DNA of 29,894 nt, from the IMG/VR virus record IMGVR_UViG_3300042691_035875, positions 1 through 29,894 of that record; one strand, written 5' to 3'. The stretch comes from a virus. This document shows positions 1,395 through 18,800 of this stretch, in pieces. The notes under the pieces were generated by a model. The model searched no databases and had not been told where the DNA came from. It saw nothing but the letters and a program-made list of their open reading frames with translations. The stretch's first letter is position 1, and each line of letters begins with the position of its first letter. A program made the translations under genes and the position numbers.

Positions 1395-1726
1395 TTAGAT
1401 TTAATACCGTCTGATGAGACTACGTACCAAGAACCAAATGCATAGTACAATTCAACACAAGCTCCCTTTTCAATATTAATTTCATTAAACTCCTCATCAA
1501 TCAAACCCTCAATGGGTTTGATTTTTGTGTTTGTAAGAGCCTTAATTATTACGTGGTCGGTGTTATTGTGATTAATTATAACTTCACAGTTGTCAACTAC
1601 TTTAGTTACAATTACTGATTCACCTTCAGTTGTATATTGGTTATCAGATACAATACAAATTTCAGATGTTTTAAGTACAACACCTGAAATTACCCGTTCC
1701 ATCGGTATTGATTTTTGTATTGGCAT
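1391..1726 (-). CDS. Small hypothetical protein (111 aa), last gene of the leftward block
   Basis: Not recognised. The sequence is rich in beta-forming residues, with no signal peptide or membrane segment. The C-terminus (INIEKGACVELYYAFGSWYVVSSDG) has the alternating pattern with a final G-x-W-x-V-x-S-S-D-G that is often seen in small phage virion or tail-fibre beta domains, so a structural role is plausible but unproven. Its ATG overlaps the stop of the gp13-like gene by one base (TAATG), which suggests translational coupling and co-expression with the neck protein. Its own stop overlaps the polymerase stop on the other strand. A rho-independent terminator acting on the polymerase transcript lies inside its coding region. 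Confidence 0.75.
   Translation of the reverse strand: MPIQKSIPMERVISGVVLKTSEICIVSDNQYTTEGESVIVTKVVDNCEVIINHNNTDHVIIKALTNTKIKPIEGLIDEEFNEINIEKGACVELYYAFGSWYVVSSDGIKSN
1499..1526 (+). terminator. Rho-independent terminator for the DNA polymerase transcript, inside an opposing gene
   Basis: A perfect 10-bp stem (AATCAAACCC / GGGTTTGATT) with a TCAAT loop runs into a T tract on the plus strand. It lies about 105 bases past the polymerase stop. No T tract follows the stem when read leftward, so it should act on the rightward transcript only. It sits within the 3' half of the minus-strand 111-codon gene, where it encodes part of KIKPIEGLID. Confidence 0.75.
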
Positions 1727-2847
1727 TAGATTACATACAATCCTCTTGGGAATGCTCTTAGTTTAAGTTCTTTATTTAGGTTTTCAGTAATTGCTGCGTT
1801 AGTTTCACTGAATGTCTTAGGTGCTAATCCATCAAGTCTTAATTTTAAGTTTTCTTCTAATTTAGCCTTTTCATCTTTACCTTCAGTTGCTAAGGATTGA
1901 TAGTCCATTGTAAGTTCAGAATCAGGAGTTTTTAAATTACCTGAATATTTTCCTCTTACTTTCGATAAAGTTTCTTTACAACTCGCAATAAACCACCTTC
2001 TAACAAATTGTTTTGCGGGATTGTTTAAGTCTTCCCATCTTAAAGGTGCCAATGGTACATCAGATGGTAATTTAATAATTTCAGGATTGGCGTTATAACA
2101 AGCATTTTGTTGGTCGGCATTTCCGACTTCAACTTCATAATACCAATACCAAACTTGCATATTTTTTAATTCGGAATTACCAAAGTCAAATTTTCCACCT
2201 GGTGTTTGCATTAAATGTATTGCCTTTTTACCTTCAGGTAATGCTGTCATTCTATATGTTAAATCACCTGCAATAATTCTTCTTTGTATATTAATTTCTT
2301 GCATTCTTAATAACATATCAAAACCTGGCATCATGAAATATGAGCCGGTGTAACCCATTTGTGAATAACCTGCTGGACCACCTAAACCATATCCTCCTAA
2401 AGACCCAAAACTCCAAGGGTCAAATAAAATGTTATTTTGTGCCGCTGGTGTAAACCATAATAATTCATTAACTTCTCTACCCGCAGGTATTTCATAAATT
2501 TGTTGTCCGGGCACTAATGTAATAAAATCTTTTTTAAGTACGGCGTCTCCATTTGTTTGTAAACCAACAATTTTAGAATATGCTTGCATATATCTGTTGG
2601 TATAGTCAAAATCTCTACTTAAAAAAGCTTGTGCGACTGATTGAGTCTCAATATTAAGATTGTATAAATTAGACCATTGTGATTGAATTAACCAATCCTG
2701 AACGTATTGAGAATAATCACCAATTGAAAATTCCAATAGTGTATCCATTTGTTCGTCCTCAAGTTCAATTGAACGTAGAGGGGCTCCTAAAATGTGTCTG
2801 ACCTTTGTGAATAAATCACTTCTTTCAGGTTCTGCAATAACTCCCAT
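1726..2847 (-). CDS. 13: Neck protein, T4 gp13-like head completion protein
   Basis: Virion protein predicted to sit at the head-tail junction, where T4 gp13 and gp14 form the neck that closes the filled head and receives the tail. The N-terminus (VRHILGAPLRSIELEDEQMDTLL, residues 16-38) matches the T4 gp13 opening pattern (RRLGAP, then VELTPDQI). The C-terminus (LNKELKLRAFPRGLYVI) matches the helix followed by PFGILVG that ends T4 gp13. At 373 aa it is longer than T4 gp13 (about 309 aa); the middle holds a Gly/Tyr-rich stretch around residues 150-175. A TATTTATA motif lies 16 bases before the ATG. It lies 24 bases after the SOD fusion gene and is coupled to the small gene downstream. Unlike T4, it is on the opposite strand from the following neck and tail genes. 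The comparison is from memory of the T4 protein, not an alignment. Confidence 0.72.
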   Translation of the reverse strand: MGVIAEPERSDLFTKVRHILGAPLRSIELEDEQMDTLLEFSIGDYSQYVQDWLIQSQWSNLYNLNIETQSVAQAFLSRDFDYTNRYMQAYSKIVGLQTNGDAVLKKDFITLVPGQQIYEIPAGREVNELLWFTPAAQNNILFDPWSFGSLGGYGLGGPAGYSQMGYTGSYFMMPGFDMLLRMQEINIQRRIIAGDLTYRMTALPEGKKAIHLMQTPGGKFDFGNSELKNMQVWYWYYEVEVGNADQQNACYNANPEIIKLPSDVPLAPLRWEDLNNPAKQFVRRWFIASCKETLSKVRGKYSGNLKTPDSELTMDYQSLATEGKDEKAKLEENLKLRLDGLAPKTFSETNAAITENLNKELKLRAFPRGLYVI

Positions 2848-2871: not shown

Positions 2872-4404
2872 TCAAACTAGTTCATAAATTAAATTGTCTG
2901 ATGGTATTTTAAAATGGTCCCCTGAAGCGTCTACATTTTTATTATCAAATACATAAACTTTTTTATTGTCGGTGAAAATTAATAAATCGGTTTTATAATC
3001 TTTTACAAATCCTTTTATTTTGATTACGTATTCACCTTCAGATTGTGTTATTGAATAAATGGGTTTAACTTGTCCTGTCTTATCCACACCGTCAATTGTT
3101 AAAATGATATCAACACCTCCACTCATATCTTGCTCACTACCCAATTTACCTACAGTTTTAACATTTTCATCACCTAATTTTTTCTTTAGTAATGTGTTAA
3201 CAAATGATTCATTACTTTCACCTTTATTATGAGTTTTAGTTAAAATATTCATAATATTTGTTAAAGTATTAGATGATGGGAAAATTCTATTTTTGTATTT
3301 TTTTATGTAATTACAAAATCTATAAACCTCATTAATTTGTTCTTTTGGTGTTTTCCCAACTAAAGTTATTTCAGGTTCACCCATTTTTACAACTGCTTTA
3401 TTAATATCATGAAGTAAAATTACAAAACCAATAATGTTTGTATTTAATTTATTTAAAACTGAACGTCCCTTAATTCCATCAATATCATATACACCTGACA
3501 TTTCACCTGGTGCATATTCTCCTTTTTCATAATAGTTTTCACCGTAAACATCAGAAAGTACTGAATCAATACATTTTCTAAAGGTCCACAATAAGTTTTT
3601 GTTGTTACTCAAAATAAACATGTAATTTTGAATCGCCTTACCTATTGGAGTGTATGACTCTTTTTGTTCGTTAATCATAAATGATTCGGTAATTGTTTCT
3701 TCTTTTTTTGTTTTTGATAAAAATAATTCGTTAACAAATTTCCAGTTAATTGCATCCCAAAAATTTTGAATGTATTCGTCTCTTTTGTTTTGATATTTTA
3801 AGTAATAAGCGTGTTCCCATAAATCTAAACCTAAAACAGGGAATCCACCTTTATCAAAAATATTCATTAATGGGTTGTCTTGATTTTGAGTTGACATCAC
3901 CTTTAATCTACCACCTTTAGTTATTACTAACCAAACCCACCCTGAACCAAATCTCTTTTTAGCAACTGATTCAAATCTTTCTTTAAATTCTCTATAACTT
4001 CCAAAATCTTTTTTTATTTTGTCTAAAATTTCTCCTGTTGGTTTTTGAGGTGTTGGTGATAACATTTTCCAAAACAATGCGTGGTTAAATGCTCCACCCG
4101 CATTATTTCTAATGGTTGTGTTATATTTTGAGATTTGTTTAACAATTTTTTCTAACTCAACATCACCATATTCTTTTTTACGTAGAGCTGAGTTTAATTT
4201 ATTAACGTAACCCTTATAATGTTTTTGATAGTGGAATTTCATAGTCTCAGGGTCAATAAATCTTCGTAAAGATGCATACCCGTATGGTAATTTCTCAATA
4301 CCAATTGTTTTCATCTCATTGATAAAAAACTTAGTTTCAGGTAAACTTTTTTCCCCCGTTATTTTTTGTATTAAAGATTCTGATAATAAATTTAACGATT
4401 TCAT
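2872..4404 (-). CDS. Mn-type superoxide dismutase fused to a PD-(D/E)XK nuclease-like domain
   Basis: Residues about 37-230 are a complete Fe/Mn superoxide dismutase, which converts superoxide to peroxide and oxygen. All four metal ligands are visible: His58 (KFHYQKHY), His108 (FNHALFW), Asp194 and His198 (DLWEHAYY). Gly104 together with Gln175 (NQDNPL) is the arrangement typical of Mn-type rather than Fe-type enzymes. Residues about 250-510 are a second region absent from ordinary SODs, which are about 200 aa. It ends in a restriction-endonuclease-like pattern: GGVDIILTIDG with Asp432, then QVK with Gln445 and Lys447, then a strand of type DLLIFTDNKKVYVF. This is weaker evidence than the SOD part. 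The N-terminal 30 residues and the 231-250 linker contain LSE, INE, ITE and INE, which resemble (L/I)-x-E prohead-protease sites. I chose the ATG at 4404 over a TTG one codon earlier. The stop is TGA. A TATTTATT motif lies 4 bases before the ATG. Confidence 0.88.
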   Translation of the reverse strand: MKSLNLLSESLIQKITGEKSLPETKFFINEMKTIGIEKLPYGYASLRRFIDPETMKFHYQKHYKGYVNKLNSALRKKEYGDVELEKIVKQISKYNTTIRNNAGGAFNHALFWKMLSPTPQKPTGEILDKIKKDFGSYREFKERFESVAKKRFGSGWVWLVITKGGRLKVMSTQNQDNPLMNIFDKGGFPVLGLDLWEHAYYLKYQNKRDEYIQNFWDAINWKFVNELFLSKTKKEETITESFMINEQKESYTPIGKAIQNYMFILSNNKNLLWTFRKCIDSVLSDVYGENYYEKGEYAPGEMSGVYDIDGIKGRSVLNKLNTNIIGFVILLHDINKAVVKMGEPEITLVGKTPKEQINEVYRFCNYIKKYKNRIFPSSNTLTNIMNILTKTHNKGESNESFVNTLLKKKLGDENVKTVGKLGSEQDMSGGVDIILTIDGVDKTGQVKPIYSITQSEGEYVIKIKGFVKDYKTDLLIFTDNKKVYVFDNKNVDASGDHFKIPSDNLIYELV

Positions 4405-4417: not shown

Positions 4418-6178
4418 TTACCTATTATTGATTTCTTTCAAGATTTGTTCCACAATGTCTGCATCAGTTTCTTGTAAGTCCCCCATAACAGTTCCGATGA
4501 TTTTCTTTTTTCTATCTAAAATATCGTAAATTACCCCTTCAATCGTATTCTCAAAAATTGGATAGTAGATTGAAACTGTGTTTTTTTGTCCGTAACGATA
4601 CGCTCGGTCCTCTGCCTGACTGTGTTCCGCAGGTACAAATGATAAGTCATTCATGATACATGCTTCAGCCGCGGTTAATGTTAAACCAACCCCCGCTGCT
4701 TTAATATTTCCACAAAACACCTGTATCTTATCACTTTCTTGAAATTTATCAACAGCATCTTGTCTTGCAGGTTTTGTGGTTGACCCGTCTAAATAAACTG
4801 ATTTTTTACCAAAATGTTCGTGTATCTTTTTTAAAGGTTCAGTGAAGTTACTAAAAATAATAACTTTCTTACCTTGCTCAATAATGTTTTCAGCAAGCTC
4901 AATTGTGTGAGATATTTTCTCTTCGGCAAGAACCTGTCTAACTTTCATCAATTTTGTAAACTGTACGGACAATGATTTTGATTCGTCTTGACGATTATTA
5001 TACCAATCATAATACTCACCCATAAGTCCTTCATATAAACGAGATTTTAAACGAAGGTAAACGGGTGTCATAATTTTATCGGGTAAATCCAAAACATCCG
5101 TCTTTAATCTACGAAGAATTTGTCTTGAGGTTCTATCTCGTAATTCTTCTAAATTAGACGCTCCTGTGACATTCCAAACTTTTTTACTACCAACTCTAAA
5201 TTGATATCCATTACAATAACGGATTGCGTATGCCATCCAATTCTGACTAACAGGACTATCAATTAACTTCAGTATGTTATAATAATTCATTGGACGTGAG
5301 GTCATCGGAGTACCTGTTAACAACCAAAGTTTTTTAATATTCTTGGTTAGGTCCATAATGATTTTTGTCCTCTGAGCCTGAGCGTTAGACACATAATGGG
5401 CTTCGTCAATAACCACCAAATCAAATTTTGATTTTAAAAGTATTGAGTTTTCTTTATCTTTCGGGTCGTGAAAGTTTTTTAATATATCATAGTTTGTAAT
5501 GATATAGTCAGCGTCTTCAAATTTCTTACCCTCACAAATATAAACCGTCTTATCAGTGTAGTTCTTAATCTCCCTCTCCCAATTTATCTTCAAAGATGCC
5601 GGACAGATAATTAAAGTTTTTTTAGACCCACTCTCCAACGATGCGATAACAGTTGAAGTTGTCTTTCCTAGTCCCATATCATCTGCCAATATGAACTTAT
5701 CATTCTTCAATAACTTTTCAATTGCTTCCTTTTGGTGAAACAGTGGGGGACGATTATCGTATTTTGAATAATCAACATTAACAATGTTTTCTTTATACTC
5801 CTTAATTACCGCAGCTTTAGGTACCCAAAAATCGTGAATAGTGTCACCACTAAAAACCTTACCCCATATATGATAAGACTTATCTTTCTCAACGAGTAAT
5901 TTCTCAATATAGATTTTATCAGGTTCCTTAATGAATGGATTATCTTCCACAAGTTTTTTTGAAAAGTATGAATCAATGTCAACCCATTTTTTTGCAACTT
6001 TAGGTGTTGTTTTATAATACGTTATAACATATTCACATTGAGCCCTTGTGGGAATGTGTTTTTTATTAGACTCACATTGTTTTTTAATTCTAAGTATATA
6101 GTTGTTTGACCCTTCATATTTTTCTAAAAGGTCAATTGCTTCTTGCTCAATACTTAAATGTTGTTTTCCTGTTTCCAA
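4418..6178 (-). CDS. SNF2-family (superfamily 2) DNA-dependent ATPase/helicase
   Basis: Predicted ATP-driven DNA translocase or remodeller. The two RecA-like lobes of an SF2 enzyme are complete: motif I DDMGLGKT (166-173), motif Ia region IICPASL (190-196), motif II DEAH (258-261), motif III LTGTP (287-291), and motifs V and VI NIKAAGVGLTLT and QAEDRAYRYGQ (521-531). The DRAxRxGQ form of motif VI is diagnostic of SNF2/RapA/HARP-like proteins rather than of T4 UvsW or Dda. About 140 residues precede the helicase core and are not recognised. The start is a TTG at 6178: reading upstream in frame there is no ATG before a stop codon, and the next internal Met is far inside. It is the first gene of the leftward block and diverges from the gp14-like gene 53 bases away. 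A role in replication fork repair, recombination or transcription-replication conflict is inferred. Confidence 0.92.
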   Translation of the reverse strand: METGKQHLSIEQEAIDLLEKYEGSNNYILRIKKQCESNKKHIPTRAQCEYVITYYKTTPKVAKKWVDIDSYFSKKLVEDNPFIKEPDKIYIEKLLVEKDKSYHIWGKVFSGDTIHDFWVPKAAVIKEYKENIVNVDYSKYDNRPPLFHQKEAIEKLLKNDKFILADDMGLGKTTSTVIASLESGSKKTLIICPASLKINWEREIKNYTDKTVYICEGKKFEDADYIITNYDILKNFHDPKDKENSILLKSKFDLVVIDEAHYVSNAQAQRTKIIMDLTKNIKKLWLLTGTPMTSRPMNYYNILKLIDSPVSQNWMAYAIRYCNGYQFRVGSKKVWNVTGASNLEELRDRTSRQILRRLKTDVLDLPDKIMTPVYLRLKSRLYEGLMGEYYDWYNNRQDESKSLSVQFTKLMKVRQVLAEEKISHTIELAENIIEQGKKVIIFSNFTEPLKKIHEHFGKKSVYLDGSTTKPARQDAVDKFQESDKIQVFCGNIKAAGVGLTLTAAEACIMNDLSFVPAEHSQAEDRAYRYGQKNTVSIYYPIFENTIEGVIYDILDRKKKIIGTVMGDLQETDADIVEQILKEINNR

Positions 6179-6747: not shown

Positions 6748-7802
6748 TGGCGTTACCTAAAAAAATAAAAAAGAACATTAATTTAACACCTGAAAAAACA
6801 GGGTTGGCTCGTAGATATCAGTTACTTGATGATATTAACGACAATGGTACATTTTTACCTAAATCATTATTACATGAAGATTTAGATGGGGGATTTCTAA
6901 ATTTTGTGAAAGAAGATTTAAAAACCACAATAAATGGTAAAGTAATTCCTGTTGTTAATATTTTATTAACATCTCAAAACTGGGCTCAGTTTACACAAAC
7001 TTGGGATTTCAATGACTTAGATAAAAATTCTAAACCTCCATTCATTACTACAATTAGACAACCTGAAGTTAAATTTGGGACAATTCCTTCTCTTAGGTAT
7101 AACATACCGAATAGAAAACAATATTACTACGCAGCGGTACCTACTTGGGACGGAACAAGAAAGGGTTTAGACATTTACACAATCCCACAACCTGTCCCTG
7201 TTGATATAAAATATACGGTTAAAATAATTTGTAACCGTATGAGGGAGTTGAATTTATTTAATCAAACTGTGATTGAAAAGTTCGCATCAAGGCAAGCGTA
7301 TACACAAATAAAAGGACACTATATCCCAATCCAATTAGATGATATATCTGATGAATCAGTAATGGATTTAGAAAAACGAAGATATTATATTCAATCATAT
7401 GGATTTACATTACAAGGATTTTTGATAGATGAGAACGAGTTTGAAGTGAAACCCGCAATTAGTAGAGTATTAATGTTAGTTGAAACCCAATCTCAAAAAA
7501 AACCTAAGAAAATAAATAAGTTTCCTAAAAATCCTGACAGTATTCCATTAACATTTTCTTACCCTGTTGGGACCACAACTTATAGTAAGACTTTTGAATA
7601 TAATACTAACTTAACTTTAAATAGTTCTGATAATATTGCGTCATATGAAGTGTATATTAACAATCTATATTACGGTAACAATATATCTCAGTTTTTGACA
7701 GGTAAAATACAATTGAACTCTAATGACACCCTTAGGATTGAAATTGTAAAAGATAACGGTTCATTGGAATCAAATTTTGAGTTTACATCAATATTACTTT
7801 AA
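6747..7802 (+). CDS. 15: Tail completion / sheath stabiliser protein, T4 gp15-like, with extra C-terminal domain
   Basis: Predicted to cap the tail tube and sheath and join the tail to the neck. Residues 149-185 (PVPVDIKYTVKIICNRMRELNLFN) match the T4 gp15 segment with PSPIKMIYELSIFTRYEDDMFQI. Residues 208-228 (LEKRRYYIQSYGFTLQGFLID) match its RRRIEWSLTFEVNGWMYP segment. The N-terminal half includes a loop ending in a Tyr-rich strand (QYYYAAVPTW). From about residue 266 to 351, after a Lys-rich linker, there is an extra beta-rich domain that I do not see in T4 gp15; it reads like an immunoglobulin-like fold. The stop codon overlaps the stop of a small minus-strand gene. The gene lies downstream of gp14-like and upstream of the sheath gene, as in T4 order. 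Confidence 0.7.
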   Translation: MALPKKIKKNINLTPEKTGLARRYQLLDDINDNGTFLPKSLLHEDLDGGFLNFVKEDLKTTINGKVIPVVNILLTSQNWAQFTQTWDFNDLDKNSKPPFITTIRQPEVKFGTIPSLRYNIPNRKQYYYAAVPTWDGTRKGLDIYTIPQPVPVDIKYTVKIICNRMRELNLFNQTVIEKFASRQAYTQIKGHYIPIQLDDISDESVMDLEKRRYYIQSYGFTLQGFLIDENEFEVKPAISRVLMLVETQSQKKPKKINKFPKNPDSIPLTFSYPVGTTTYSKTFEYNTNLTLNSSDNIASYEVYINNLYYGNNISQFLTGKIQLNSNDTLRIEIVKDNGSLESNFEFTSILL

Positions 7803-7948
7803 CGTTCTCCGTATATATCCTTTTTTTCCTGACAATTATCTTCAATTAACTTTTCTAAAAATTTATGAATTTTCAATCCATTCTTCATGCAATACTTTTT
7901 AAGTATTGAATGACTGTCTTCAGATATTTTTAAGTTCTTGATTTTCAT
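7799..7948 (-). CDS. Small ribbon-helix-helix (Arc/CopG-like) DNA-binding protein, 49 aa
   Basis: Translated from the ATG at 7948: it begins MKIKNLKISEDSHSILKKYC and ends in Tyr-Gly-Glu-Arg followed by TAA. The pattern is a short basic strand (KIKNLKI), a helix (DSHSILKKYCMKNG) and a second helix (LKIHKFLEKLIEDN), as in RHH regulators of the Arc, CopG and ParD type. It is the only minus-strand gene between 6.2 kb and the right end. Its stop overlaps the gp15-like stop within TTAA. Two perfect 11-base repeats lie directly before its start codon, so self-regulation is likely. No toxin gene is beside it, so a solo phage regulator is more likely than an antitoxin. Fold assignment is from the residue pattern only. 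Confidence 0.72.
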   Translation of the reverse strand: MKIKNLKISEDSHSILKKYCMKNGLKIHKFLEKLIEDNCQEKKDIYGER

Positions 7949-7970
7949 GGCAGAATTAAGGCAGAATTAA
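7949..7970 (+). repeat. Two tandem perfect 11-base repeats, candidate operator of the RHH gene
   Basis: GGCAGAATTAA occurs twice head to tail, at 7949-7959 and 7960-7970. On the minus strand the pair (TTAATTCTGCC twice) abuts the RHH start codon. An 11-base period places both copies on the same face of the helix, as RHH operators often do. Binding by the encoded protein is inferred. Confidence 0.65.
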
Positions 7971-8026
7971 ATCATACTTCCTGATAAATAGTTTAAAAAA
8001 CAATAAGTTTTTGGAAAAAACGATAA

Positions 8027-8034
8027 TATTTATG
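8027..8034 (+). promoter_or_regulatory. TATTTATG motif before the tail sheath gene
   Basis: The motif lies 33 bases before the sheath ATG. The leader between them is almost entirely A and T, with no Shine-Dalgarno sequence, and ends in CAAAAAATAA before the ATG. This is one of the copies at a distance suited to a true promoter -10 element. Confidence 0.5.
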
Positions 8035-8067
8035 AATAAATAAATTTTTAAAAACATCAAAAAATAA

Positions 8068-11000
8068 ATGGCAACAGCAAACAAAGTATTCGTTTCTCCG
8101 GGTGTATACACATCCGAGACCGATTTATCATTTGTTTCACAAAGTGTTGGTGTTACAACTTTAGGTATTGTTGGTGAAACTTTAAAAGGTCCTGCTTTTG
8201 AACCTATCTTTATTGGTAGTTATGACGAGTTTCAAACATACTTCGGTGGTACTACACCTGAAAAATTTGTGAATACACAAATTCCTAAATACGAGGCGGC
8301 GTATATCGCAAAGTCTTATTTACAACAATCTAACCAATTGTTTGTTACAAGAATATTAGGTCTTAATGGTTATGATGCAGGTCCATCTTGGTCCATCAAA
8401 ACAATTGCAAACGTTAACCCTGATACTATAGGATTTTCAGGAAGTACAGGACAACCAACAGTATATACTTTACAATTCTCAGGTAATACAGGTGGTACTG
8501 TTAACTATACAAATATTGCGTCATGGACGGCATCACCAATGTATAATGTATTTACGTCAACTTATACAACATTTAACAAGGGTACTTCAACAATCAAAAC
8601 TGATTTAACAACAATGTTGTCAGGTATTTTTACAACACCTGCAAATTCAGCAACAACAATTGATTATTTCGGTTCAATACCTGGAGCTAATTATTCAGCA
8701 TTAAGTTCGTACACAAATAGAACTAACGTATATGGTGTCGAGTCTTTATCAGGGGCAAGTTTAAGTTCTCGTAATAACGATGCTTGGTTCTACTCGGCAT
8801 TTGACCCAACAATGAATGGTGTTCTACAAACAAGTGCATATACAGGATACTCTTTCTATAGTGTAGTTACAAATTTAGTAACAGGTGCTACTGCAGGAAC
8901 TTATACAGGTACTGTTTCAGGTACTTACTATACTTTGACAGGTACATCTTACAGTGATTACACTAACTTAGTTGTTGCAACTTTACGTTCAAGAGGTATT
9001 ACACAATATTCAACAACTTTAGACGGACAACAATACCAAGTAACAGGTACTACCGACGTATCCTTATTAGGTTCAGGAACTGCGTATTCGGCAATTACAA
9101 AGAACCCATATGCAACATTTAAAGTTTCAGGTATTACTGTTGATAGTAGTTCTTTTGAGTTTGAAACTTCATTCTTAACATCTCAGTCAAATTATTTGGC
9201 AAGTGTGTTTGGAACTGAAAACTTTGCAAAAGAAAGAACTGAAGTTCCATTATTCTTAGAGGAAAGATATGATACTTTATTATCTTATGGATATAACAAA
9301 GGTTATGTTAGAGGTATTAATAGTAATATCGTTGGTTTAGGTGACTCAAGAAATTCTTTGAATACTGGTTTTGCAACAACAGGTTTTTATCTACAAAGAT
9401 ATCAAACACCTGAGTCTCCATGGGTTGTTTCTGAATTACGTGGTAACGTTGTTTACAGACTATTCAAATTTACAACAATATCTGATGGTAACGCTGCAAA
9501 CAGACAAGTTAAAGTATCTTTAGCTAACATGTCATTCGTTAACCAAACATTTGACGTAATTGTTAGAGATTTTTACGATACAGATTCTAATCCTGTAGTA
9601 CTTGAGAAGTTCACTAATTGTTCTATGGACCCAAGTCTTAACAATTATGTGGCTAAGAAAATTGGTACTTCAGATGGTGAGTTTGAGATTAAATCAAAAC
9701 TTGTAATGGTTGAAGTTAATTACGAAGCTCCGATAGACGCATTACCTTGTGGTTTTGAAGGTTTTGTTACAAGAGTTTATGGTGTATTATCCAACTCATC
9801 TGCGTTTCCTGTTATTAAGACAAAATATAACACACCTGGTGAAATTATTTACAACCCACCATTTGGTTCACTTGCGGGAGGTGATGATGCATTACCAGCA
9901 GCAGGAGACAACGTAAGAAGAACTTACTTAGGTATTTCAACTTCAATAGGTGTGGATAACGATTTCTATGAATATAAAGGAAAAGTTAGACCTGTAGGTG
10001 ATATCTGTGAAGAAGGTTCTTACGACAACTGGCCAAGATTAACTAGAGGTTTCCACATGGATAGCGGGGCAACTGCAATCACAATCTCATCAGCAGTCTA
10101 TACTGCATCAACAGGTAATCAAGCATTTGATTGTGGTGTGGCGTCATTCTCAAGTGAACCAACTGACACTGAGAATCCATATTACAGATTGTTCGCACGT
10201 AAGTTTACTTTATTAGTTCAGGGCGGATTTGATGGATGGGATATCTATGAAGAAAGACGTACAAATGGTGACACATATGCATTGGGACAATCAGGATTTA
10301 AAGCTGGATTCTGCGCAGGAGTTGACCCATATCCAACATCAACAGGCCAAGGTAACTTTAAGAAAATTGCGGTTGAGGATGGAAGTATTGAATACGGTAA
10401 CTCTGACTATTACGCATACTTAATGGGTATTAGAACATTTGCAAACCCTGAGGTAACTAACATTAACGTGTTTGTAACACCTGGTATTGATTATGTTAAT
10501 AATAGTGGATTGGTTGAGGAAAGTATCAATATGATTGAGAATGAAAGAGCTGACTCAGTTTACATCGTAACTGCACCTGACTTTAATTTGTTACAATCAT
10601 CAACATCTATGGATAACTTAATTTATCCTCAAGAAGCGGTAGATGCGTTAGAAGAGACTGGAATTGACTCTAACTACACAGCAACTTACTACCCTTGGGT
10701 GTTGACTCGTGATACTGTTAACAATACACAAATTTACTTACCAGCAACTGCTGAGGTAACAAGAAACTTAGCATTAACAGATAACATTGCCTTCCCATGG
10801 TTCGCAACTGCGGGTTACACAAGAGGTTTGGTAAATGCCATCAGAGCTCGTAAGAGATTAACTCAAGAAGATAGAGATACTCTTTACAAAGGTAGAATTA
10901 ACCCAATCGCAACTTTCAACGACGTTGGAACTGTAATTTGGGGTAATAAAACACTTCAAGTTAGAGAGTCAGCTCTTGACAGAATTAACGTTAGAAGATT

Positions 11001-11289
11001 GTTATTACAAGCTCGTAAGTTGATTTCAGCGGTGGCTGTAAGATTATTGTTTGAGCAAAACGATAACTTAGTTAGACAACAGTTCTTGAGTCAAGTTAAT
11101 CCTATCTTAGACGCTATTCGTAGAGATAGAGGTTTATACGATTTCCGTGTAACAGTTTCTAATAGTCCTGAGGACTTAGATGCTAATCAATTAGTAGGTA
11201 AGATTTATATCAAACCAACTAAAGCGTTAGAATTTATTGACATTGAATTCTTAATTACTCCAACAGGGGCTTCATTTGAAGATATCTAA
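8068..11289 (+). CDS. 18: Tail sheath protein, T4 gp18-like, enlarged
   Basis: Main contractile component of the tail. The opening VSPGVYTSETDLSF is the usual sheath start (SPGVxxxExD). The C-terminus carries the conserved sheath end: ARKRLTQEDRDTLYKGRINPIATF, then DRINVRRLLLQARKLI, and finally strands ending IEFLITPTGASFEDI, which match T4 gp18 (DRINVRRLF, then NFVATATGADFDE). It is 1073 aa, against about 659 in T4. Most of the extra length appears to lie around residues 120-370, rich in Ser, Thr, Gly and Tyr, which would form outward-facing domains. A strong terminator follows within 20 bases, so it is probably made from its own abundant transcript. Confidence 0.95.
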   Translation: MATANKVFVSPGVYTSETDLSFVSQSVGVTTLGIVGETLKGPAFEPIFIGSYDEFQTYFGGTTPEKFVNTQIPKYEAAYIAKSYLQQSNQLFVTRILGLNGYDAGPSWSIKTIANVNPDTIGFSGSTGQPTVYTLQFSGNTGGTVNYTNIASWTASPMYNVFTSTYTTFNKGTSTIKTDLTTMLSGIFTTPANSATTIDYFGSIPGANYSALSSYTNRTNVYGVESLSGASLSSRNNDAWFYSAFDPTMNGVLQTSAYTGYSFYSVVTNLVTGATAGTYTGTVSGTYYTLTGTSYSDYTNLVVATLRSRGITQYSTTLDGQQYQVTGTTDVSLLGSGTAYSAITKNPYATFKVSGITVDSSSFEFETSFLTSQSNYLASVFGTENFAKERTEVPLFLEERYDTLLSYGYNKGYVRGINSNIVGLGDSRNSLNTGFATTGFYLQRYQTPESPWVVSELRGNVVYRLFKFTTISDGNAANRQVKVSLANMSFVNQTFDVIVRDFYDTDSNPVVLEKFTNCSMDPSLNNYVAKKIGTSDGEFEIKSKLVMVEVNYEAPIDALPCGFEGFVTRVYGVLSNSSAFPVIKTKYNTPGEIIYNPPFGSLAGGDDALPAAGDNVRRTYLGISTSIGVDNDFYEYKGKVRPVGDICEEGSYDNWPRLTRGFHMDSGATAITISSAVYTASTGNQAFDCGVASFSSEPTDTENPYYRLFARKFTLLVQGGFDGWDIYEERRTNGDTYALGQSGFKAGFCAGVDPYPTSTGQGNFKKIAVEDGSIEYGNSDYYAYLMGIRTFANPEVTNINVFVTPGIDYVNNSGLVEESINMIENERADSVYIVTAPDFNLLQSSTSMDNLIYPQEAVDALEETGIDSNYTATYYPWVLTRDTVNNTQIYLPATAEVTRNLALTDNIAFPWFATAGYTRGLVNAIRARKRLTQEDRDTLYKGRINPIATFNDVGTVIWGNKTLQVRESALDRINVRRLLLQARKLISAVAVRLLFEQNDNLVRQQFLSQVNPILDAIRRDRGLYDFRVTVSNSPEDLDANQLVGKIYIKPTKALEFIDIEFLITPTGASFEDI

Positions 11290-15804: not shown

Positions 15805-18800
15805 ATGTCCGAAAACAAACTTAGTTTAATTGGTTCCGAGCAATTTAGAAATTCTATTTTAGTCAAAAATTTGAAACCTTATAATGTTTCAGGTAATTTT
15901 ACACCGGCCCAAGAACCTATAAATTATGAAACAGAATTAACTGTTGATGGTACAGTACGTGATAGTGAGAATATCAGTACTAACATTACTTTTCCTGCTA
16001 AAAATAAAACAATCCCTAACAAATATGGTGCGGATGATGGTAATTTTATTGACGGAGCTGAGTTAATCCAAGACGTTACACTTGCAAACCCTGTTAATGT
16101 CGTTACTGATAATGAATCAATAACACCGGCATTTCCACCAAGAGTTGAGTATAACTATTCGGACAGCAAACTGGATTTAGTTAGTGAATTTTTTATTGAT
16201 AATTCTGAGGTTATAAATCGTTTCGTACCTAATGAAGGTTACGAAGATATGTATATTGTAACTGACACCATCGTTCAAAAAGACGTAAAATTTAATGGTG
16301 TTTATCCTGAGTTCGTACAAGGTACTTATAGTATTTTAGATATAATATCTAACAATGAAGCAACCAGTAATGATTCATATATCCAAAGAATCGGAGCGGA
16401 CAGATTGAAATTTTCTTTTGAGGAGAGAGTTTTTGAGGAAATTAGAAAAAACACATTAGGTAGAGTTAACATATTAAATCAGCCTGATTTATCATTATTT
16501 GTCACAGGACAAGTTCCATTGACAGATAAGAATTGGACTATTACCGTACCTGACGGTTTATTAGATAATTTAGTTGCGTTAACTCAAAGAGTTACTGGAA
16601 CGTATTATCCACAGTCACCTATTGAGGGTGAGTATTTTGAAACACCACAAAGAAGGTCAACAAAAGCGGGACAGTTATTACAAAAAGGAATAAGAAATTT
16701 ATCTAATAATAATTCTCCTTCACAAAAATTTATAGCAAATACAGGTAGCGGACAAAAATCCACTTTATTTGCAAATTTAGATTATAACAAATATAAACCA
16801 GGTTATAGTGGTAAATTAAATTATTATGTTGGTAATGAGAATTTGGCAGGAGCGTTAGTTGCTTCACCTGCTGATGATGTACCAAAAACTGCGGAAGGTT
16901 TAGTTACAACTACAACAGTTTATGGACCCGATAAGTTAGCGACATTATTTGATGGGAACGTTCAGTATCAATTTGGAATGGCTTCCAAAACATACGATGA
17001 ACGTCCTGTTTTTGACGGAGGATTTGTTTGGGTTCAAAAAGGAAAGAAAAGTGATGAGTTTAAGAAGGTCGGACCTGGTGGTGAAAAGTTTGGTAAGAAC
17101 GATGCTTCAAACTCACTTAGGTCAGCTTACGACCAAGTATTATCAACTGATTACGAATTCAGACCTGGCTCAATATTAGATGCTACTCAGAGATTAATTG
17201 ATGCAACCCCAAATAGAGGTGTTGATAGATTGGCTCACGTTGGTAACGCTATTAATCAGGTTTCTAAAGTATTTTGGGATGGATATAAAGAAATAACTAA
17301 AGGTTCTAAAGTTAGAACTTATGTTAATGAAAAAGGTAAGGAAGTTGGAAAAGAATACGGTAGAGTGTTTGCGAAAGACAATCCATATTTTACCTATTCA
17401 AACCTACAAGGTACGATTGCAAATACTTCAGGAAGTGAAACTAATGGTAATATTAGAAGATTTTCATATTCAGTCCTTGATAGTACGTACAACTTGAATA
17501 TTACTCCATTTAAAAATGGAGGAACTAGTGTTAAAGACGGTAAGGTAAAAAAATACATGGTGTCAATTGAGAACTTGGCGTGGAAAGGTTCTCCTGAATA
17601 TGACGATTTACCTGCTTGTGAAAAAGGTCCTAATGGTGGTAGAATCATGTGGTTCCCCCCATACGACTTAACTTTTTCAGATTCATCTGCTGCCGGATGG
17701 AACCCAACCAATTTTTTGGGTAGACCCGAACCAATTTACACTTATCAAAATACAACTAGAACTGGTAGTATTGGATTTAAAGTTATTGTGGACCACCCAT
17801 CAGTATTAAATTTAATTGTTAATAAAGAATTAAATAAAGAGGATAACTACACAACCCAACAAGTAATTAATTCATTTTTTGCTGGATTAAAAAAATATGA
17901 CATATATGAAATTGCTAAAAAATTCAATTCTTTAAGTCTACCTACAATAGAACAGGCATATCAGTCAATATTAGAAAATCCAAATGCGACAAGAGAAGAT
18001 ATACAAGGAGTTGCCAACGGATTAAGTGGACCTTCTGAAATTAATAACTCTGAAAATATTCAGGTTGATGGATGGGCCGGAATAAGATTTTTCTTTAATC
18101 CTGAACCCCCGTTTGATAACTCACAAAATTTTTCCGAGGTTAGTCTTGCTTTAAGTACTTTACTAACAACTAAAGGAGATAATTTTGATACATTCGGTTC
18201 ACAAATAGTGGAATATAATAATGTAACCATTGAAGATATTAGACAACAAATTACTTCAATTATTACTGATAAAAAAGGTAAAATTAGTATTGAGCTTGAA
18301 CCTGGTCTTTCATCAATAAATGCGAGTGACATTGAGTTATCAGTTACAAAATATTTTACTGACATTACTGAAATTGGTGAAAAGTCATTTGAAAATGGAG
18401 ACATTAAAATTAATGTATTGACTTCACCATCAACTACAATAATACCAAAAAATTCGTCAGGAAACGGAGGAACATATAATTGTCCTAATAATCAATATGA
18501 CCCAAGTTCAATTGATTCCTTTGCATGTAGTTCGGCACTAATTAAAAATATCACAGTGACCCCAAGTCAACCAACCGCTCAAGGTGAAAATCAAAATAAT
18601 CAGAATAGAGCTAATCAAAATGTAAACAATGGGTTACCAACACAACCAAACACTGATATAATAGACAAAACTAAAAATATTAGTAAAAAAATATTAAGAG
18701 AATTATTAGTTGAGTCGGACTACTTTGAAATGATAAAACAGGATACCCCATTTTTATACGACTCAATAAAACAAAAAATAAAATATTTTCATCCTGCATT

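Follow-up and report, generated by a model that had tools for sequence, protein, structure and literature searches.

In phage T4, the internal proteins IPI, IPII and IPIII, and also Alt, carry a targeting propeptide that is cut by the prohead protease gp21. As described in PMC9026906 and PMC5694885, the propeptides of the internal proteins are N-terminal and 10-19 residues long, and are removed after having targeted the protein to the core; the specificity of gp21 is given as L/I-X-E (PMC9026906). IPI is injected together with the DNA. Here, we report on a gene found in a stretch of 29,894 nucleotides of viral DNA (positions 1 to 29,894 of IMG/VR record IMGVR_UViG_3300042691_035875, the whole of which is hereafter named the window), which joins a superoxide dismutase (SOD) to a nuclease-like domain. 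The fusion resembles the T4 internal proteins in having an N-terminal leader and L/I-x-E sites, and in the presence, in related phages, of gp21 and of a gp23 with a matching site. It differs from these small proteins in that a single chain, with a second site inside it, joins two enzymes, and by eye its leader is like theirs in general character only; its packaging is what these features suggest.

The chlorovirus PBCV-1 appears by analogy to be the closest functional precedent for a SOD and a DNA endonuclease in one virion. According to the account given in PMC7019647, this virion holds a late-expressed Cu/Zn-SOD (A245R) and restriction endonucleases; infected cells contain less superoxide than cells infected with virus lacking the SOD gene, a difference in which the authors predict a part for the SOD. 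The packaged restriction endonucleases presumably start degradation of host DNA within 5 minutes. PBCV-1 is a large double-stranded DNA virus with both a SOD and DNA endonucleases in its virion, as is proposed here for the phage of the window. However, it infects green algae, its SOD is of the Cu/Zn and not of the Fe/Mn type, its enzymes are separate proteins, and no protein family was shown to be shared.

Each half of the fusion also has counterparts of its own. Bacterial Fe/Mn-SODs of the Mn type share its ligands and second-sphere residues, to which the fusion adds leader, linker and nuclease. A phage SOD is present in PA5oct-like Pseudomonas jumbo phages (sodB of Callisto and MIJ3), but it is only 22.9% identical, over residues 39-228 only, and the match stops short of the nuclease half. 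The core fold of the PD-(D/E)XK nucleases I-Ssp6803I, Hjc and RecU is shared by the second half, as judged by Foldseek and VIA, and this half has conserved E, D and Q-x-K residues; it differs in having no sequence match in the PDB, and in an extra N-terminal helical part. Lastly, the huge phage LR756501 (735 kb) encodes a standalone nuclease of the same family (locus L002, 4743-5615; hmmsearch E value 8.4e-24) with the E, D and Q-C-K residues, no SOD, and no leader evident by eye. A scan of viral contigs with this protein matched 15, none of which was confirmed.

Recurrence of the fusion

In the window, the SOD frame runs on without a stop into the nuclease-like half as a single open reading frame (ORF) of 510 residues, as an initial annotation made from this sequence had stated. 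Scanning viral contigs with the window protein gave at least 595 confirmed relatives, the best 80 of which were loci encoding the two-domain protein, with 51-75% identity to that of the window. The match extended to residue 506 or beyond in 79 of these 80 loci, and the last one (L064) ends with its contig. With the C-terminal alignment as query, at least 509 relatives were confirmed. The fusion is real, and not rare among metagenomic viruses, from which 74 distinct complete fusions were collected. This recurrence, with first-scan loci at 51% identity or more, rules out an assembly chimera. Contamination by host DNA is ruled out by the T4-type DNA polymerase B, gp32-like, sheath, tube and baseplate genes on the contig, and contradicted as well by the bacterial matches, none of which (best 80 of 236) extends beyond residue 263, so that none reaches the nuclease half or represents a fusion.

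No record covering at least 80% of the fusion protein was found among 50,697 phage records, nor any published account of a SOD-nuclease fusion in a search of the open-access literature, and the text 'LTESDL' led to no paper. This agrees with the annotation, which knew of no SOD joined to a nuclease-like domain; judging from that literature and these records, the fusion seems not to have been described before, although this is not certain. Purifying selection acts on both halves, the median ratio of nonsynonymous to synonymous substitution rates being 0.031 for the SOD and 0.102 for the nuclease (60 pairs taken at random from 156 pairs with 80-96% identity).

L/I-x-E triplets before and after the SOD

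Conservation was counted on 97 distinct complete homologues, i.e. the 74 fusions and 23 standalone nucleases presented below; two open-ended ORFs, one of each kind, were left out. Among the 74 fusions, Glu is present in at least 90% of the rows at eleven columns. An L/I-x-E triplet, the middle residue of which varies, was found in 74/74 fusions at E30, just before the SOD, in 71/74 at E246, at the SOD/nuclease boundary, and in 60/74 at E236, within the linker. Eight different triplets occupy the E30 column (INE 26, LNE 23, LTE 10, IVE 5, LFE 4, LSE 4, ISE 1 and LLE 1). At the E236 column, the window protein itself has no such triplet, and has ITE240 nearby instead. Only one other column reached 80%, namely E197 (74/74), which is part of the invariant active-site L-W-E-H. 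Apart from E359, which is considered later, the remaining Glu columns had the triplet in at most 4 of the 74 rows.

The density of triplets follows the same division of the chain. Counted per residue, they amount to 200/2656 in the leader (residues 1-36) and 143/1738 in the linker, as compared to 131/14208 in the SOD core, 74 of which are E197, and 185/19057 in the nuclease. This corresponds to a density about eightfold greater in leader and linker than in the two domains.

gp21 and gp23 in related phages

Among 12 long relatives, five have both gp21 (PF03420) and gp23 (PF07068): four carriers of the fusion (the records of loci L010, L013, L015 and L027) and the SOD-less L144. For four of these five records, gp23 was aligned with that of T4, and all four read LINE↓A at the position of T4 E65↓A66 (the arrow marks the cut), in the context FLINE for three and HLINE for one. 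The capsid protein site FLINE↓A is much like the FFINE↓M and MINE↓Q sites of the fusion. From this gp23 site, we infer that gp21 of these relatives would have the L/I-x-E specificity of its T4 counterpart.

Nucleases without SOD

The nuclease profile matched 230 ORFs, consisting of 167 fusions, 60 standalone nucleases and 3 partial C-terminal matches. As these include contigs fetched twice as different loci, distinct C-termini were counted, after dropping the 3 partial matches, which gave 75 fusions and 24 standalone forms. In 17 of the 23 distinct complete standalone forms, a leader of about 30 residues, similar by eye to that of the fusion, is joined straight to the nuclease. The L/I-x-E triplet at the junction is kept in 21/23 of them by reading, and in 19/23 by alignment column, L312 and L334 being one column off. 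In one SOD-less form, L301, 'KSIISEGKSERCS' is preceded by 'INEMKKIEIEKL', which resembles the beginning of the SOD region, so that the SOD seems to have been deleted in frame, with a remnant kept.

In the nuclease tree (midpoint root, with some long branches), the SOD-less forms are nested among the fusions, and three changes are needed to account for their distribution. No SOD without nuclease occurs among the loci, which were gathered with fusion or nuclease queries (best 80 per scan) and are no census. Among the 12 long records, each of the 6 with a fusion has one SOD. None was found elsewhere in the genome in the 6 long records with a standalone nuclease (160-318 kb), for which completeness is not given, so that absence is no proof; a move of the SOD to another gene in SOD-less phages was therefore not seen in these records. 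On the evidence of these sequences, the nuclease is the constant part and the SOD the optional part.

The initial annotation had taken the protein for one two-headed enzyme. The L/I-x-E triplets flanking the SOD, the gp23 site and the standalone nucleases make separation of the halves by the prohead protease, and carriage in the head, more likely. An alternative that shares this packaging evidence (L/I-x-E sites, gp23 site and motif density) is that the SOD protects packaged DNA from superoxide inside the extracellular capsid, the nuclease being a separate cargo. We consider it quite improbable, as nuclease and leader are kept in SOD-less relatives, and as a mature head presumably holds little that would produce superoxide enzymatically.

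Two further observations concern the SOD-less phages. In the record of L283 (G015), the nuclease profile finds a further match, a distant one (238417-238899, plus strand, E value 3.3e-13). Thymidylate synthase matches, sought as a hint of DNA modification, were present in 4 of 9 records, namely the four longest SOD-less ones (G003, G013, G014 and G015), and in none of the 5 fusion records, which may point to a difference in nucleotide metabolism between the two subgroups.

The two domains

The SOD domain is matched by Pfam Sod_Fe_N (PF00081) over residues 37-116 (E value 4.1e-22, 78.9 bits for a cut-off of 27) and Sod_Fe_C (PF02777) over residues 122-226 (1.6e-40, 137.7 bits for a cut-off of 20.9). 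Its closest solved structures by sequence are MnSODs, and with the whole model, all 50 matches listed by VIA are SODs, with Z up to 17.8. The metal ligands His58, His108, Asp194 and His198 stand where the annotation had placed them, and do not vary among the 74 fusions. The same holds for its Gly/Gln pair, Gly103 and Gln175, which we take to be the second sphere of Mn-type enzymes, and for E197 and Y201, presumably the dimer-bridge residues; Gly104 is invariant too in a smaller alignment of 29 rows. The SOD is apparently intact, its second-sphere residues point to the Mn type and hence to manganese as the probable metal, and from these residues it is very probably an active enzyme.

The invariance of E197 and Y201 (74/74) is also what could be expected of an uncut bifunctional enzyme acting in the infected cell, in which the SOD would dimerise the nuclease and keep superoxide away from the phage DNA during replication. 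The structural matches do include SOD subunits of the plastid RNA polymerase, for which a similar role in guarding the chloroplast nucleoid is assumed. We nevertheless hold this reading to be unlikely: it leaves unexplained the triplets with a free middle residue at E30 (74/74) and E246 (71/74), the eightfold excess in leader and linker, and the existence of SOD-less nucleases with leader and site.

For the second half, the annotation had pointed out a PD-(D/E)XK-like pattern made of Asp432, Gln445 and Lys447. These residues are invariant in the 97 homologues, and so are Glu399, which it had not listed, and D426. An AlphaFold2 (AF2) model of residues 236-510, built with 30 homologues, has a mean predicted local distance difference test score (pLDDT) of 83.5, with most ten-residue blocks at 80-96. 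In this model, the order of these residues is that expected of the PD-(D/E)XK fold: E399 is part of a long helix of the core, D432 directly precedes a strand, and Q445-x-K447 belongs to the strand that follows. The structure prediction that the annotation had proposed as a check thus gave a confidently predicted nuclease-like fold, the structural matches of which have modest scores. With Foldseek, I-Ssp6803I ranks first (E value 3.4e-3, probability 1.00), and Hjc resolvases are found at ranks 6, 8 and 10 (0.57-0.90) amid unrelated chains. With VIA, the first 25 rows are Hjc, I-Ssp6803I, NhoI, HhaI, Eco15I, RecU, DpnI and other nucleases (Z from 7.5 to 4.4, root-mean-square deviation 2.9-5.7 over 80-106 residues), all of which, recognised by name, we take to be PD-(D/E)XK enzymes. 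On the other side, no Foldseek E value is below 0.001, unrelated chains appear from rank 4 on, and no VIA Z value for the nuclease exceeds 7.5, below the guide value of 8 of this tool. By its model, the C-terminal domain very probably has the PD-(D/E)XK fold. Relative to nucleases of this fold, it has additional helices on its N-terminal side, where G-x-Y ... G-R-S ... N residues are invariant.

We label the domain PD-(D/E)XK-like by fold and motif because sequence searches yielded no named family. The nuclease profile found no match in the PDB at E values up to 10. In Pfam, the window protein had no match above cut-off after the SOD domains, and over 30 nuclease members the best E value was 0.0016, no family being matched by more than 2 of the 30. 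PHROGs, NCBIfam and PADLOC gave weak matches at most for the nuclease, with none in PADLOC for either the fusion or its nuclease half; the match to phrog_8330 ('genome terminal protein', E value 0.0099) was treated as due to chance. A scan of viral contigs with the C-terminal half of the window protein alone matched 6 stretches, none of them confirmed. Activity as a nuclease is what the fold and motif suggest, and the substrate would be DNA.

Proposed mechanism

The reading that we favour, and judge fairly likely as a whole, is that this gene of a T4-like phage encodes a polyprotein carried as cargo in the virion and cut into SOD and nuclease, both of which would be injected with the DNA. The chain would consist of an N-terminal leader, a Mn-type SOD and a PD-(D/E)XK-like nuclease, in this order. 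Its leader would take it into the prohead core, in the manner of T4 capsid targeting sequences, where a gp21-type prohead protease would cut after E30 and E246, and also at nearby L/I-x-E triplets. The head would then contain the SOD (about 206-216 residues) and the nuclease (about 264 residues) as separate proteins. The size of such a cargo need not stand in the way, since the T4 head was used to carry beta-galactosidase into E. coli (PMC9026906). Upon entry into the host with the phage DNA, the SOD could remove superoxide in the earliest minutes of the infection. The nuclease could attack DNA of the host or of a rival, or a DNA structure that the packaged genome does not contain.

Not all parts of this scheme are equally firm. 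Cleavage and packaging, which are predicted from the triplets and the leader, are likely. That both enzymes act on the host side, rather than protecting in the capsid, is only slightly favoured. An injected cargo would best suit two of the roles considered in the initial annotation, the defeat of a host oxidative stress and damage to other DNA, and protection of packaged DNA is possible.

Several observations weigh against the scheme. The L/I-x-E motif fixes two residues only, and E359, inside the nuclease half, shows it in 51/74 fusions, which indicates that conservation of such a triplet also occurs inside a domain. The triplet is missing at E246 in 3/74 fusions (two have V three residues before the cut, and one has no E) and at E236 in 14/74. 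Rows in these counts are related, so that 74 fusions do not amount to 74 independent events. In the whole-protein model, pLDDT is below 50 at linker residues 234-247, but also over much of residues 21-82, inside the SOD; low pLDDT is not specific to the linker, and lends weak support to a cut site. At 30 residues, the leader is longer than the T4 propeptides (10-19), which it resembles in general character alone, a comparison by eye with T4 IPI showing no more than this. Six of the 23 standalone nucleases have a short N-terminus of about 14 residues, and L295 and L323 have no triplet at the junction. Neither gp21 nor gp23 was found in 7 of the 12 long relatives, records of unstated completeness, or among the window genes scanned. 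Finally, a reason is needed for the nuclease to spare the packaged genome next to it, and none was found.

If a virion-borne SOD is indeed present, the handling of reactive oxygen by phages in the first minutes of infection becomes directly testable. Division of a two-enzyme polyprotein by the prohead protease, if true, would extend the idea of T4 internal proteins from small single proteins to modular cargo, and the phages would have converged with the chloroviruses, in which a SOD and restriction endonucleases are packaged into virions. In addition, injected proteins of metagenomic T4-like phages can be sought through the conserved leader. In a broader form, T4-like jumbo phages, probably of Bacteroidota, would deliver a set of leader-tagged head proteins including the self-dividing SOD-nuclease, with the prohead protease as polyprotein processor and the SOD as an exchangeable module between protease sites; the chances of this appear evenly balanced.

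Genomic context and host

Coordinates of the features discussed are given in Table 1.

Table 1. Features of the SOD-nuclease gene and of its neighbours in the window. Arrows mark proposed cuts.
Feature	Position	Strand	Evidence
Whole SOD-nuclease gene, 510 residues and stop, ATG start	2872..4404	-	ORF translation, homologues
N-terminal leader, residues 1-30, proposed capsid-targeting propeptide	4315..4404	-	L/I-x-E density; leaders of standalone forms
LSE9↓S triplet within leader	4378-4386	-	sequence
Site 1, I-N-E30↓M, proposed prohead-protease cut before SOD	4315..4323	-	L/I-x-E in 74/74 distinct fusions
Fe/Mn superoxide dismutase domain, residues 37-226	3727..4296	-	Pfam PF00081 and PF02777, MnSOD and VIA matches
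His58, metal ligand	4231..4233	-	invariant 74/74 fusions
His108, metal ligand	4081..4083	-	invariant 74/74 fusions
Asp194, metal ligand	3823..3825	-	invariant 74/74 fusions
His198, metal ligand	3811..3813	-	invariant 74/74 fusions
Linker, residues 229-252	3649..3720	-	L/I-x-E density, low pLDDT
I-T-E240↓S, additional L/I-x-E triplet in linker of window phage	3685..3693	-	sequence
Site 2, I-N-E246↓Q, proposed prohead-protease cut, SOD/nuclease boundary	3667..3675	-	L/I-x-E in 71/74 distinct fusions
Proposed mature nuclease fragment, residues 247-510, helical part and PD-(D/E)XK-like core	2875..3666	-	AF2 model m2776f9f0e1d5
PD-(D/E)XK-like core, about residues 391-510	2875..3234	-	Foldseek I-Ssp6803I, VIA matches spanning model 156-275
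Glu399, proposed active-site residue, first core helix	3208..3210	-	invariant 97/97
Asp432, proposed active-site residue	3109..3111	-	invariant 97/97
Gln445 of Q-x-K motif	3070..3072	-	invariant 97/97
Lys447 of Q-x-K motif	3064..3066	-	invariant 97/97
SNF2-type ATPase/helicase, conserved upstream neighbour	4418..6178	-	Pfam/PHROG
Neck/head-completion protein, conserved downstream neighbour	1726..2847	-	phrog_211 E 6.7e-10

The leftward block with a SNF2-type ATPase and a neck protein, noted in the initial annotation, was recovered, with the SNF2 gene upstream of the fusion and the neck (head-tail adaptor) gene downstream. Both neighbours are conserved: the SNF2 gene is upstream in 58/59 evaluable fusions and 19/20 evaluable standalone forms, and the neck gene downstream in 67/70 evaluable fusions and 22/23 standalone forms. 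The position of the fusion on the same strand, before a head (neck) gene, fits late, structural expression.

The constancy of the SNF2 gene could also mean that the phage carries the ATPase and the nuclease as a two-part defence directed at competing phages, comparable to the ZorD or DrmD helicase-nuclease modules, with the SOD as an accessory. The best PADLOC match of the SNF2 protein is ZorD ('SWI2/SNF2 helicase, Mrr-like nuclease', E value 1.4e-48), but this match is limited to the ATPase part, the PHROGs label is DNA helicase, and PADLOC matches neither the fusion nor the nuclease half. As the neck gene is an equally constant neighbour, we regard a defence pair as very improbable.

The adjoining neck gene, for its part, could suggest that the nuclease is a head-completion or packaging nuclease, in the role of T4 gp4, the SOD being a passenger. 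T4 gp4 itself contains a D...E-I-K-P stretch, and a search of 7 long relatives with T4 gp4 gave a single weak match (E value 0.018). However, when the nuclease alignment was compared to T4 gp4 with hhalign, the probability was 0.1%, though the gp4 side is a single sequence. We regard such a role as very improbable.

Bacteroidota are the likely hosts. The bacterial SODs matched (best 80 of 236) are 41-54% identical to that of the window, and mostly from Bacteroidota by record title. In the SOD tree, 79 bacterial rows are separated from all 25 phage representatives by a 100/100 branch, 0.8 in length; one misaligned bacterial row (L242, with a branch length of 10 and only 16% of its columns filled) falls outside this two-group split. 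The gp23 of the family is nearest to those of an uncultured 484-kb phage, Microcystis phage Mel-JY01 and Flavobacterium phage immuto. The neck protein of the window matches the 'putative head completion protein' of immuto (21% identity over 332 residues, E value 2.3e-10), and the best match of the nuclease profile in a 25.6-kb stretch of this phage had an E value of 0.15.

The tail sheath protein of the window (8068-11289) has 1073 residues, and its best sheath-family matches are at residues 776-1070. Its start is sheath-like by eye, and the several hundred residues in between may be an insert.

Other proteins with leader-like starts

We also searched for leaders among the 266 ORFs, called by a simple longest-ORF rule, of the 242-kb relative G001 (the record of L015). 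L/I-x-E triplets with E at residues 6-38 amount to 212/8,778 (0.024), as compared to 720/58,601 (0.012) beyond residue 60, bins after residue 38 ranging from 0.008 to 0.019. Ten of these ORFs, located at 222-242 kb and 9 kb, have a leader of the type MKKIIRLTESDLTRIIKRVIAEQ, i.e. M...[LI][TS]E-x-[DEQ]-L, which reads R-L-[TS]-E in seven of them. This suggests a wider set of leader-tagged proteins in G001, which would be located in the head.

Two other G001 ORFs may be mentioned. One (16483-16854, minus strand) encodes 123 residues with a short L-x-E-bearing start, and matches Pfam DUF5856 (PF19174, E value 1.5e-17); it is Dps/ferritin-like by eye alone. The other (7074-8117, minus strand) has a leader-like start and a HEMLH motif, and is by eye a possible zinc metallopeptidase, with nothing above the Pfam cut-off.

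Beyond the SNF2 gene, a second protein with a leader-like start, MKFRITE or MKFVLTE, was observed in L077 (2136-3617, minus strand), L067 (2119-3597, minus strand), L313 and L317. It contains a CxxC...CxxC stretch and a PF25735 domain (residues 56-167, E value 5.6e-29 in L077), and its linker 'LFVISEVRKIGITE' is very like the linker 'LFLNEMKKIGIE' of the fusion. The L077 protein also has a paralogous nuclease domain (hmmsearch E value 1.2e-15).

Finally, no paper on the structural proteins of Flavobacterium phage immuto was found. Two proteins of this phage (L345, 2712-4012) start with MADNFNLRSFLTENKL and MENFDLKKFLVENKL, leader-like N-termini with an L-x-E triplet, so that such N-termini exist in a cultured phage, the virions of which are accessible to proteomics.

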